From Arboricoccus pini (GTDB lineage Bacteria; Pseudomonadota; Alphaproteobacteria; Geminicoccales; Geminicoccaceae): a stretch of DNA of 64,000 nt. A program made the position numbers and the translations under genes. This document shows positions 10,816-52,145 of this stretch, piece after piece (positions within the stretch are counted from its first letter, which is position 1; each line of letters begins with the position of its first letter). Under the pieces are notes generated by a model. The model was not told the origin of the DNA, did no database searches, and saw only the letters and a program-made list of their open reading frames with translations. The stretch lies in the NCBI RefSeq assembly GCF_900187945.1, contig NZ_FYEH01000002.1, positions 186,001-250,000 of the forward strand. The letters run 5' to 3'.

Positions 10816-10831
10816 ATCCGGAACGATCCCC

Positions 10832-10890
10832 GGCCTTTTAGCGGATTCTTTATAGTGGTCCGCAAGCCGACCGGCTCAAATCACCACTTC
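10832..10890 (-). promoter_or_regulatory. SAM-II riboswitch aptamer
   Basis: The minus-strand RNA has the SAM-II consensus in order: GUGGUGAUUUGAGCCGG, the loop-closing CCGG(U)CGGCUUGC, CCAC closing the first stem with GUGG, then AUAAAG and the conserved CGCUAAAAGGCC at the 3' edge, which forms the pseudoknot. This class binds S-adenosylmethionine and in alphaproteobacteria controls methionine genes such as metA, metX and metZ. It lies 42 bases from the pyrD stop and about 85 bases before the metZ start. Confidence 0.93.
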
Positions 10891-10899
10891 ACCTTCGAG

Positions 10900-35288: not shown

Positions 35289-36782
35289 CTATTTCCAGAT
35301 CGGCTTGCCTTGTCCTGGCAGGCCATAATCTTCCCATCGTTTTGTTACCAATTCGATAACGTCGTCCGCCATCTTCAGCTTCTTTCCCCACTCACGGTGG
35401 GTTTCGCCCGGCCATTTGTCGGTGGCATCGATGCCGAGCTTCCCGCCAAGGCCGGATTCCGGCGAAGCGAAATCGAGATAGTCGATCGGCGTATTCTCGA
35501 TCACCGTCAGATCGCGACCAGGATCGACACGGGTGCTGATCGCCCAGATGACGTCCTGCCAGTCGCGCGCGTTGATATCATCGTCCACCACAATGACGAA
35601 TTTGGTGTAGATGAACTGTCTTAAAAAGGACCACACACCCATCATTATACGCTTTGCATGGCCGGGATACGCTTTACGCATGGAGACCACGGCCACGCGA
35701 TAGGAACAGCCCTCCGGCGGCAGCCAGAAATCGACGATCTCGGGAAATTGCTGGCGAAAGAGCGGCAGGAATACATCGTTCAGCGCTTCGCCCAGGATTG
35801 AGGGCTCGTCCGGAGGGCGACCTGTGAATGTCGTAAGGTAGATGGGCTTACGGCGCATCGTCATGGCTGTGATCGTGAAGACCGGGAAACTCTCGACGGA
35901 GTTGTAGTAGCCCGTATGGTCGCCATAAGGGCCCTCGTCGCCATATTCGTCGAGGCTGACATAGCCCTCCAGGACGATCTCCGCCTGGGCCGGCACCTTG
36001 AGAGGCTGGCTGACGCAATCGACGAGTTCGACCTTGCGGCCGCGCAGGAGGCCAGCGAACTGATATTCAGACATCGTATCCGGTACCGGCGTCACGGCGG
36101 CCAGGATCGTGCCTGGATCGGCACCGATGACAGCCGCGGCAGGCAGCGGCTCATGCTTCGTCTGCTTCCATCGCGCATGATGCTGGGCGCCGCCGCGCTG
36201 CTTCAGCCAGCGCATCAAGGTTCGGTCGCGCCCGAGCACCTGCATGCGATAGATGCCAAGATTGAAGCGATCCTCAGCCCCTGTGCCCGGCCCTTTGGTG
36301 ACCACCAACGGCCATGTGATCAGGGGTGCGGGCTCGCCTGGCCAACAGCTTTGGATCGGCAGGCGGCCGAGATCGATCTCCTCACCGCGCAGGATCACCT
36401 CCTGGCAGGGTGCCCGCGAGACGGTCTTAGGCTTCATGGCCAAGGCCAGTTTGGCAATCGGCAGCATCTCCCAGGCTTCGCGCAGGCTTTCCGGCGGCTG
36501 CGGCTGCTTCAGGAAGGCCAGGAGTTCGCCCAGTTCACGCAGTTGATGCGGCTCGCGATCCATGCCCCAGGCCACCCGCTCGACGGTGCCGAAAAGATTC
36601 GTCATCACCGGCGTGTCGAAGCCTTGGACGTTCTCAAAGATCACCGCCGGCCCCTGCTCAGCCAGAAGGCGGGTGTGGATCTCGGTGATTTCGAGCATCG
36701 GCGAGACCGGCGCTGTCACGCGAACGAGCCGCCCCCTCTTTTCAAGGAGATCGATGAAGTCGCGGAGCGATTCGAAGGGCAT
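35289..36782 (-). CDS. ubiD: UbiD-family decarboxylase (4-hydroxy-3-polyprenylbenzoate decarboxylase)
   Basis: A 497-residue prenylated-FMN-dependent decarboxylase. In the ubiquinone pathway it removes the carboxyl group of 4-hydroxy-3-polyprenylbenzoate. Full-length family sequence is present: [13 protein letters not shown] near the start, [10 protein letters not shown] with the active-site loop, and [15 protein letters not shown] towards the end. The start at 36782 is normal. The usual flavin prenyltransferase ubiX is not in the window. It precedes the inositol-phosphatase gene without a gap. Confidence 0.92.
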
Positions 36783-50318: not shown

Positions 50319-51134
50319 ATGACCCACGAGCTTGCGGATGCCCAGCTTCGTCTCGAGGCAGCATTGCGCCGGGAGGGGCCGCTGGCGATTGCTGTCAGCG
50401 GCGGCGTCGACAGCATGACGCTGGCCTATCTGGCGCACCGCGTCGACCCAAAGGCAACGCTGATGGTCCATGCCGTCTCGGCCGCTGTGCCGGGCGAGGC
50501 CACCCGTCGCGTCGAAGTCTATGCCGCCAGATGGGGCTGGACGTTGCGCCTTATCGATGCCGGCGAGTTCGCCGATCCTGACTATCTGCGCAACCCGGTC
50601 AATCGCTGCTTCTTTTGCAAGCGCAACCTCTATGGAGCGATCGCCGCCGTCGCAAGGCGGCGTATCATGGCCGGAACCAATCTGGATGATCTTGGCGATT
50701 ACCGGCCGGGGCTCGAGGCCGCCAGCCAGCACGATGTGCGCCACCCCTATGTCGAGGCGGGGATCGACAAGAAAGGCGTGCGGGCGCTGGCGACGGCGCA
50801 TGGGCTGGACGATCTGGCCGAATTGCCGGCGGCACCCTGTCTTGCCAGTCGGCTCGAGACAGGCATCGCCGTCACGCCATTGAGCCTGCGGCTGATCGAG
50901 GCAATCGAGACCCGCCTTAAGCGTAACCATCCTGGCCACACGCTGCGCGCGAGGCTGCGGGCAGGCGGTCTGGTCGTCGAGCTCGATCATCGCCTCGATC
51001 CGATGGCTATCGAGAATGCGCTTGGCCAGGAGATCGCCGACATGGCACGTGGCTTCGACGAAAGACGGCCCATTCGCTATGAACGCTATCGGATGGGCTC
51101 GGCATTCGTCGGCCGCAAGGACGGGGTTGCGTGA
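50319..51134 (+). CDS. larE: LarE-family sulfur transferase for nickel-pincer cofactor synthesis
   Basis: A 271-residue PP-loop ATPase that adenylates the pyridinium carboxylates and inserts sulfur in cofactor synthesis. The PP-loop is S-G-G-V-D-S (27-32). It carries a C-F-F-C pair (Cys97, Cys100) and a third cysteine in A-P-C-L-A-S-R (Cys174). Three-cysteine LarE homologues are thought to hold a [4Fe-4S] cluster and act catalytically, whereas single-cysteine LarE sacrifices its own sulfur. I use the ATG at 50319. Its stop overlaps the larB start (GTGA). Confidence 0.9.
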   Translation: MTHELADAQLRLEAALRREGPLAIAVSGGVDSMTLAYLAHRVDPKATLMVHAVSAAVPGEATRRVEVYAARWGWTLRLIDAGEFADPDYLRNPVNRCFFCKRNLYGAIAAVARRRIMAGTNLDDLGDYRPGLEAASQHDVRHPYVEAGIDKKGVRALATAHGLDDLAELPAAPCLASRLETGIAVTPLSLRLIEAIETRLKRNHPGHTLRARLRAGGLVVELDHRLDPMAIENALGQEIADMARGFDERRPIRYERYRMGSAFVGRKDGVA

Positions 51135-51805
51135 GCGCCTTCGTGCACGACGCGGATCGTCTCGCACGCCTCGGCCTGACCGAAGCCATTTTCTGCGGCA
51201 GCAAGAGCGCGGCCCAGATCGAGCATATCCTGGATAGCGTCGGCCCGACGCTGCCGCTGCTCCTTACCCGGCTGGAGCCAATAAAATTCGACGAGCTTCC
51301 GGCCCGGCTGCGCCACCAGCTCGATTATGACCGCCTCTCGCATACGGCCATTCTGGCGGGGCCGCCACCGCCCACGGGCGACGCCGCGATCGCGATCGTC
51401 TCGGGCGGAACCAGTGATGCGCCCGTCGCCCAGGAAGCGGGGCGAACCCTGGCCTTCCATGGCCATGCCTGCACGATGATCGAGGATGTGGGCGTGGCCG
51501 GACTATGGCGGCTCTTGGAGCGGCAAGCCCTTATCGGCCGCCACCGGATCATCATCGCCGTGGCCGGCATGGAGGGCGCCCTCTTTTCCGTATTGGGCGG
51601 TCTGGTGGCCCTTCCCATCATCGCCGTGCCGACATCGACCGGCTACGGCGTGACTACGGGAGGCATGACTGCCTTGCATTCGGCGCTCGGCAGCTGCGCA
51701 CCGGGCCTTACGGTCGTCAATATCGACAATGGCTACGGCGCTGCCTGTGCCGCCATCAGGATCCTGAACAGCCAACGGGCGCGCAAGGGTGATGGTCAGG
51801 GCTGA
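51131..51805 (+). CDS. larB: LarB-family pyridinium carboxylase/hydrolase for nickel-pincer cofactor
   Basis: A 224-residue PurE-like enzyme that carboxylates nicotinic acid adenine dinucleotide in the first step of the nickel-pincer pathway. The core begins at A-I-V-S-G-G-T-S-D, and P-T-S-T-G-Y-G-V-T-T-G-G-M and V-N-I-D-N-G-Y-G-A-A match LarB rather than true PurE. The N-terminal part is slightly shorter than in some homologues. The start is GTG inside the larE stop. No larC (nickel-insertion protein) follows; the next 340 bases on this strand contain no gene. Confidence 0.9.
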   Translation: MSAFVHDADRLARLGLTEAIFCGSKSAAQIEHILDSVGPTLPLLLTRLEPIKFDELPARLRHQLDYDRLSHTAILAGPPPPTGDAAIAIVSGGTSDAPVAQEAGRTLAFHGHACTMIEDVGVAGLWRLLERQALIGRHRIIIAVAGMEGALFSVLGGLVALPIIAVPTSTGYGVTTGGMTALHSALGSCAPGLTVVNIDNGYGAACAAIRILNSQRARKGDGQG

Positions 51806-51879
51806 CCACTGGCCCGATTTCGCTACGTCCCCAGCAACCGGCCGAATTGGGCTGGCGCGCTAGCAAATAAAGGTCGCTA

Positions 51880-51918
51880 AAAGGCCGAAGGGCCGCTCCC
51901 TTGCGAGAGCGACCCTTC
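51880..51918 (-). terminator. Strong hairpin terminator of the 51.9-52.1 kb minus-strand unit
   Basis: GAAGGGTCGCTC (51918-51907) pairs with GAGCGGCCCTTC (51898-51887) in a 12-bp stem with one G-U pair and an 8-base loop. It is followed by GGCC and then UUUU. The U-run sits on the minus strand only, so it ends transcripts coming from the 52.1 kb side rather than from larB. Confidence 0.7.
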
Positions 51919-51985
51919 CATTGCCTGACCGCAGGTCTCTCGACCCTGTCCTAGAAGGACATAACGGACTTCCCGGCTACGTGCG

Positions 51986-52057
51986 TCAGGACGCGATGCC
52001 GCCGAAAGTGGAAATCCAGGTCGAGACTGTCCCCTGCGGGACCAAACAATGAGACAC
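51986..52057 (-). CDS. Candidate 23-residue peptide with extreme Shine-Dalgarno
   Basis: A GTG-started frame of 23 codons ending in TGA. The peptide contains one Cys, one Trp and a Gly-Gly near the C-terminus (T-V-S-T-W-I-S-T-F-G-G-I). The upstream sequence GAAAGGAGGTGATCCAG runs right into the start codon and complements the alphaproteobacterial 16S rRNA 3' end over 17 bases; AGGAGG itself is 7 bases before GTG. A small structured tail and a strong terminator hairpin follow. I do not recognise the peptide. It could be a leader or a small protein, or the frame may be incidental. Confidence 0.45.
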   Translation of the reverse strand: MSHCLVPQGTVSTWISTFGGIAS

Positions 52058-52058
52058 T

Positions 52059-52073
52059 GGATCACCTCCTTTC
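52059..52073 (-). promoter_or_regulatory. Extended ribosome-binding site/anti-16S-tail sequence
   Basis: The minus strand reads GAAAGGAGGTGATCC, the complement of the 16S 3' tail GGATCACCUCCUUUC; the match extends to 17 bases if CAG up to position 52057 is counted. Normal sites use 4-7 bases. Read on the plus strand the same stretch is a copy of the 16S tail, so a 16S-like remnant or an anti-SD-type RNA is the alternative reading. Confidence 0.6.
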
Positions 52074-52145
52074 AATCTTGTTGCTGCCACGCACAAAAGG
52101 TGGCGGCTAACAGACTGTCGCACAAGCCCTAAAGCGGCTTGCTCG

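Follow-up and report, generated by a model that had tools for sequence, protein, structure and literature searches.

The minus strand of the analysed stretch (the window, 64,000 nucleotides of the Arboricoccus pini genome) carries at 51889-52081 a full-length match to the Rfam family RF01867 (CC2171, "Caulobacter sRNA"), a family said to go back to Landt et al. in 2008. The match covers model positions 1-159 and is the sole RF01867 copy of the genome; its 75.3 bits stand barely above the gathering score of 75. An earlier note had described at this place a 17-base match to the 16S 3' tail, a 23-codon frame and a terminator without recognising the family, and all three are real and located where it put them. 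The terminator has the U-rich end described there, although its stem is 14 bp rather than 12 bp long, and what had been read as two small hairpins are, in the predicted structure, parts of one long enclosing fold (219-nt stretch; -102.6 kcal/mol, z = -4.83). The features of the unit, whose transcript would end at about 52091 and 51879, are as follows.

52098..52126, minus strand: possible promoter, read by eye and weak (CTTGTG at 52121-52126, a 17-nt spacer, CCACCT at 52098-52103).
51889..52081, minus strand: whole RNA unit, the full-length RF01867 match (75.3 bits against 75).
52059..52073, minus strand: 15-nt leader GAAAGGAGGTGATCC, complement of the single-stranded 16S tail (from the sequence, the pairing kept in relatives and the 16S tail of three relatives).
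51986..52057, minus strand: 23-codon ORF from GTG (52055-52057) to TGA (51986-51988), MSHCLVPQGTVSTWISTFGGIAS (from the sequence; start, frame and stop maintained in relatives, amino acids not).
52033..52051, minus strand: 5' strand of the helix P1, CAUUGUUUGG at 52042-52051 with the extension CCGCAGG at 52033-52039 (predicted fold, family covariation).
51919..51935, minus strand: 3' strand of P1, UCAGGCAAUG at 51919-51928 with the extension CCUGCGG at 51929-51935 (predicted fold, family covariation).
51879..51918, minus strand: terminator, a 14-bp stem with a GCAA loop, then GGCCUUUU (sequence and predicted fold).

The promoter offsets were taken from weak -35/-10-like conservation in relatives, a YATNHT-like -10 element being present in just 21 of 74 relatives of type 1, one of the lineage types of this RNA. 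Past the terminator, the next gene (51131-51805, plus strand) encodes an AIR carboxylase-domain protein and is convergent with the unit; as no same-strand gene directly follows the terminator, we rejected a leader-peptide attenuator. The other neighbour, previously called a PQQ-type sugar dehydrogenase, is more correctly a GSDH-domain protein, and a link to it was rejected after clustering the 849 flanking ORFs of the 175-RNA set, in which no neighbour recurred widely and no family was common to the lineage types in more than 4 loci (flanking ORF calls are noisy in GC-rich DNA). PqqA has conserved Glu and Tyr residues; as had been pointed out, neither occurs in the 23-codon peptide, and this identity was rejected as well. 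Each of three Bradyrhizobium loci (L092, L102 and L110) has an opposite-strand tRNA gene ~150-300 bases away from the copy.

The sequence GAAAGGAGGTGATCCAG at 52057-52073 (minus strand) is an exact 17-base complement of the 16S tail. Only one other 17-mer site was found in the window with up to 3 mismatches (36390-36406, minus strand, 3 mismatches, GCCAGGAGGTGATCCTG); shuffled sequences gave on average 0.18 matches at this threshold, and in none of 100 was a match with 2 mismatches reached. The 4.07 Mb genome has a single occurrence of the core AAGGAGGTGATCC (reversed control, 0), so that other genes do not use such a leader. Comparison with relatives reduces the 17-base match to a 15-nt family leader, GAAAGGAGGUGAUCC, complementary to the single-stranded 16S tail: position 16 is variable, and with position 17 the start codon has already begun. 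Because a search of the genome did not find its own 16S 3' end, the tail was checked in relatives, and in the 3 of 16 genomes with a match (G005, of the same family, G388 and G690) it reads GGCTGGATCACCTCCTTTCT in every case. The tail after helix 45 is described as 13 bases long in E. coli and as GAUCACCUCCUUUCU in B. subtilis (PMC6107228, in the part of the text available); if it ends here as in B. subtilis, the leader covers 14 of the 15 tail bases and the preceding base. In L059 and other Rhodobacterales-type loci the 3' part of the RNA can carry an anti-SD copy, e.g., ACCTCCTTTC, which could mask the RNA's own leader.

An RNA with this leader is found throughout the class. At E <= 0.01, RF01867 had matches in 25 of the 60 relatives and in 96 of the 385 class genomes, but only 3/60 and 14/385 reached the cut-off; the Rfam model catches only part of the class-wide family at that score. 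The sequence GGAGGTGATCCNDTGTC was present in 65/385 class genomes, with one match each (reversed control, 0), and the full leader with up to two mismatches in 102/385 (reversed control, 4 matches) and in 60 of the 101 genomes of one family, presumably Rhizobiaceae (reversed control, 1 match). In a draw from the whole phylum, GGAGGTGATCCNNTGTC, a pattern that allows a CUG start, matched 44 of 86 class genomes, all with an ATG or GTG start, and 6 of 213 genomes outside the class, five with CTG and one with TTG (86 and 213 being counts of result rows). A scan of named genomes gave at least 119 loci with a pattern that fixed the 15-mer, an A/G/T-TG start and the TC of codon 2; evidence on these fixed features comes from the loci found through Rfam, the GGAGGTGATCCNNTGTC draw (for the start codon) and the mismatch searches. 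Among the matches listed, 103 loci with an order-level origin came from Acetobacterales, Caulobacterales, Hyphomicrobiales, Hyphomonadales, Rhodobacterales, Rhodospirillales and Sphingomonadales. Two short matches were seen in plasmid records, and one family member (L057) lies on a contig titled as a Gemmatimonadetes MAG, where misbinning or transfer is possible.

This distribution bears on the suggestion that the stretch is a piece of a 16S gene, random or decayed. The only identity is to the complement of the 16S tail, and that is what such a reading has in its favour; the remainder of the unit matches RF01867, the Rfam matches in the window include no rRNA family, and the frequency of the leader pattern in the class compares with 4 matches for the reversed control. 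We see virtually no chance that it is correct. Of the two findings that the earlier note had named as fatal to its proposal, an origin from degraded 16S was thus not borne out, and neither was a lack of conservation in relatives, the element being conserved across the class.

Altogether, 317 of 326 loci yielded an RNA, giving a compared set of 280 distinct RNAs that includes the window copy. The comparisons of ORFs, near pairs, dN/dS (large set), motif, P1 and folding required a terminator-like hairpin; no search pattern specified ORF length, stop, P1 or peptide, while P1 and the leader belong to the Rfam model.

Substitutions within the leader tend to preserve its pairing with 16S. At positions 2-15, 44 of the 53 substitutions counted in two surveys keep the pairing through G·U: 23 of 31 at the level of families (a class search with 103 matches in 54 genome families, three rows dropped), with 8 breaking it, and 21 of 22 at the level of genera (the search of 101 genomes of one family, two matches dropped), with 1 breaking it. 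Any p-values for these counts are rough, as families or genera are treated as independent. Among transitions alone 44 keep the pairing and 1 breaks it, and the figures are 26 and 1 at positions 11-15, beyond the classical core. Positions 3-11 are exact in 100 of 103 class matches, and transversions at position 15 account for most of the pair-breaking changes (6 families, 1 genus). The outermost base, position 1, is free to vary, every change there being pair-breaking (12/100 class rows; 2/60 rows in the one-family search), and was excluded from the counts. In G690 the leader ends in GATCT and the 16S is unchanged, so that this pair would be a wobble. The Rfam model draws the leader as a 2-bp hairpin, and a short hairpin of this kind could explain the changes at C15, but not those at A12, A2 and A3. 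Single-sequence folding made the leader about as accessible as it is in shuffled context (0.416 against 0.408, n = 134). As judged from these sequence comparisons, the complementarity to 16S is both present and maintained, and the pairing itself would presumably form in the cell. Of the two readings offered previously, we favour selection of the RNA for binding to the 16S tail over a highly translated peptide, the G·U-retaining substitutions supporting selection to keep the pairing.

Another shared element is the covarying helix P1: from codon 2 onwards it encloses the ORF, and its 3' strand adjoins the terminator. It is already included in the Rfam model, and an enclosing helix after the start triplet is present here, as membership in RF01867 entails, in the Rfam alignment and by family covariation; in the accessible part of PMC11701678, RF01867 is one of the families for which Rfam 15 lists a single additional covarying pair. 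We compared pairing between codons 2-8 and the 23 nt at the terminator foot within and across RNAs: within the same RNA it amounted to -14.15 kcal/mol, against -9.27 (sd 0.23) when partners were permuted (300 permutations, n = 154), and a control segment upstream gave no pairing signal in this test. Type 1, the MSS type and the mixed rest each reached 0/300 permutations; the signal was weaker in the Sphingomonadales (8/300) and Rhodobacterales (26/300) types, and the Bradyrhizobium type gave no clear P1 (n = 4). From +8 on, each position shows several pair types. The U of codon 2 finds a partner (A or G) in 111/154 RNAs and the C (G) in 114/154, so that the conserved UC may be a feature of the RNA. 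When sequences were folded singly, the probability of P1 exceeded 0.5 in only 72 of 134 RNAs.

The ORF begins one base past the leader and usually spans 14-36 codons across the family. Start codons are AUG, GUG or UUG, and stop codons swap in place. All 175 distinct RNAs have a frame-0 stop upstream of the terminator; in 154 RNAs less than 80% alike it falls at codons 14-36 in 150, later in 4 and earlier in 0, whereas in the two alternative frames a stop occurs before codon 14 in 64 and 72 of them; the frames are not independent, because the conserved letters near the start contain out-of-frame stops. Among 67 near pairs, 49 have ORFs of equal length and 54 have aligned stops, 18 of the latter with different stop codons. 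No ORF gap occurs in the 22 closest pairs, 18 of which are gapped beyond the stop. When the 67 pairs are taken together, multiples of three do not predominate among the gaps (32/144 in ORFs, 57/283 after ORFs), perhaps because divergent pairs align badly. Two loci have longer frames, L123 (Azospirillum) with 59 codons and L174 with 56, and the L123 peptide resembles a signal peptide with a low-complexity tail.

Constraint on the amino acids was not apparent. Over 76 same-length pairs, dN/dS was 1.02 (0.90-1.17), against 0.89 and 0.98 in the other two frames, and thus gave no sign of purifying selection on the peptide, in a measure that may be blurred since RNA pairing can depress synonymous change. 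A smaller run gave 1.3 (41 pairs), and the four larger lineage types, under a wider cut-off and with the first two codons skipped, 0.83-2.07. The raised value of the Sphingomonadales type (1.93; 1.18-5.2) may reflect constraint on codons or on structure. No excess at third positions appeared in codon-position entropy, a result of little weight in GC-rich genomes.

An inner motif similar to GGAGCAGCC lies mostly 49-57 nt past the start, and MSS-type RNAs read it in three frames (47, 11 and 4 RNAs), translating it as EQP or RSSL among others; in several Rhodobacterales-type RNAs, a similar GGGCAGCCC is found at or beyond the stop. In type 1, TGG (Trp) is in frame in 29 of the 31 RNAs with the motif (53 examined), which hints at some constraint on the peptide.

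One reading, a small mRNA whose product is the peptide and whose long SD just maximises expression, would account for the maintained start, frame and stop, for the in-frame Trp of type 1 and for the lineage-specific peptides that recur. As regards the earlier proposal of a highly translated tiny peptide, the frame is maintained; the dN/dS near one and the change of frame relative to the GGAGCAGCC motif in some relatives leave a functional peptide product unsupported, and the single occurrence of AAGGAGGTGATCC in the genome also speaks against it. We consider this reading unlikely. Somewhat less likely still is an ordinary sRNA that acts in trans by base pairing and uses its 3' part to regulate mRNAs, the SD and ORF serving mainly for protection by ribosomes; such an RNA would fit the near-constant place of the inner motif whatever the frame, as well as the terminator and the lone transcription unit, but the region past the stop is strongly variable in length and sequence among near pairs.

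We place at the same low level a non-coding RNA that binds the 16S tail untranslated, as a 30S decoy or in a hibernation-like role. The whole-tail complement kept by G·U pairing and the helix directly after the start codon are what one would look for in it. Against it, the starts are AUG, GUG or UUG, with CUG in 0 of 280 RNAs (partly fixed by the search pattern) and likewise in none of the 44 class matches (44/44 without CUG) under the pattern that allows it, and stops are maintained in near pairs. The frame is maintained across the family, as expected of a translated small mRNA or dual-function sRNA, which makes a purely non-coding decoy unlikely; the ORF is, by this pattern, probably translated. 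That start, length and stop are kept while the amino acids drift suggests that being translated matters more than the peptide.

The explanation that we prefer, tentatively and at somewhat less than an even chance, is that the unit is transcribed on its own as a small RNA of ~210 nt and belongs to the class-wide family; a 30S subunit would dock on it by tail pairing while the helix blocks the mRNA channel, until translation of nearly any peptide opens the fold. P1 leaves the leader and start codon just outside and contains the stretch that has to enter the mRNA channel. The 15-base leader would pair with the single-stranded 16S tail, and P1 should keep the RNA out of the mRNA channel. In the standby model of initiation, long tail pairing is expected if a 30S subunit must wait on a folded RNA; since P1 would bar the channel, the long pairing most likely keeps the 30S on standby for as long as P1 stays closed. 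The short ORF would then be translated, and passage of the ribosome would open P1 and free its 3' strand. As the stop is kept and the residues are not, ribosome passage would itself be the selected event; it seems to be the loading and passage of ribosomes, and not the peptide, that selection acts on. A regulatory output is probable, exerted through RNA stability or exposure of the 3' part. Counted against this explanation were the low single-sequence probability of P1, a leader no more open than its shuffled counterparts, ORF gaps that are not mostly multiples of three, the in-frame Trp, and a P1 that is unclear in the Bradyrhizobium type and weak in the Rhodobacterales type. Profiling in Caulobacter is described as finding two former ncRNAs translated and most intergenic ncRNA regions untranslated (PMC4117421, in the part available), and the latter finding was also counted against this explanation.

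A more far-reaching version, which we regard as very unlikely, is that the class-wide RNA meters mature free 30S subunits: it would dock only on the complete, released 16S tail, and peptide-indifferent translation would flip its fold and couple ribosome supply to the fate of the RNA. As part of this version, leader docking would overlap the GAUCACCUCC site reportedly recognised by Era, a recognition known here from a paper title in two reference lists.

The unit is akin to several described systems and differs from each. It shares with RF01867 the full-length match, the leader, the P1 helix and the terminator; that family is filed as an sRNA gene, and the available part of the Rfam entry text has no maintained ORF, selected 16S pairing or wide distribution. 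In S. aureus, extended Shine-Dalgarno sites likewise lengthen the SD pairing toward the start codon, and are reported in the accessible text for ~30% of initiation sites, on ordinary mRNAs (PMC13009471); the element described here is instead a single-copy complement of the whole tail, on a structured small RNA of Alphaproteobacteria. The dual-function sRNA rnTrpL of Sinorhizobium is also a small RNA with a very short ORF, yet it is described as attenuator-derived with a functional peptide (PMC10117765, in part), whereas our unit has no downstream same-strand gene and no sign of peptide selection.

The literature on CC2171, RF01867 and sRNAs with GGAGGUGAUCC, in the portion accessible to our search, makes no mention of an ORF or of 16S pairing for this family, and as many subscription papers lay outside that search, prior publication is possible. 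A family filed as a Caulobacter sRNA spans at least seven alphaproteobacterial orders with a maintained 16S-tail complement and a maintained frame whose residues drift. Confirmation would make it a clear example from nature of translation being conserved as an act while the peptide is not, and would provide a natural experiment on the permissible length of an SD helix; the standby model of initiation becomes testable on one compact RNA.

Some reported transcripts and peptides may belong to the same family. A 215-nt sequenced transcript of Mesorhizobium huakuii carries the label CC2171 in the accessible text of PMC5596092. The S. meliloti peptide SEP1 (23 aa, pI 4.18) is given in PMC10117765, as far as available, as having the top translation efficiency of 54 high-confidence candidates, and its length and acidity, the two properties compared, fit some Rhizobiaceae-like members, e.g., L241 (23 aa, pI 4.37), which makes it a lead only. 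BjsR3 of Bradyrhizobium could be a homologue, judging by its distribution as described in the part available. Elsewhere in the window, a SAM_alpha riboswitch (Rfam RF00521) lies at 10818-10897 on the minus strand, with 63 bits against a cut-off of 36.
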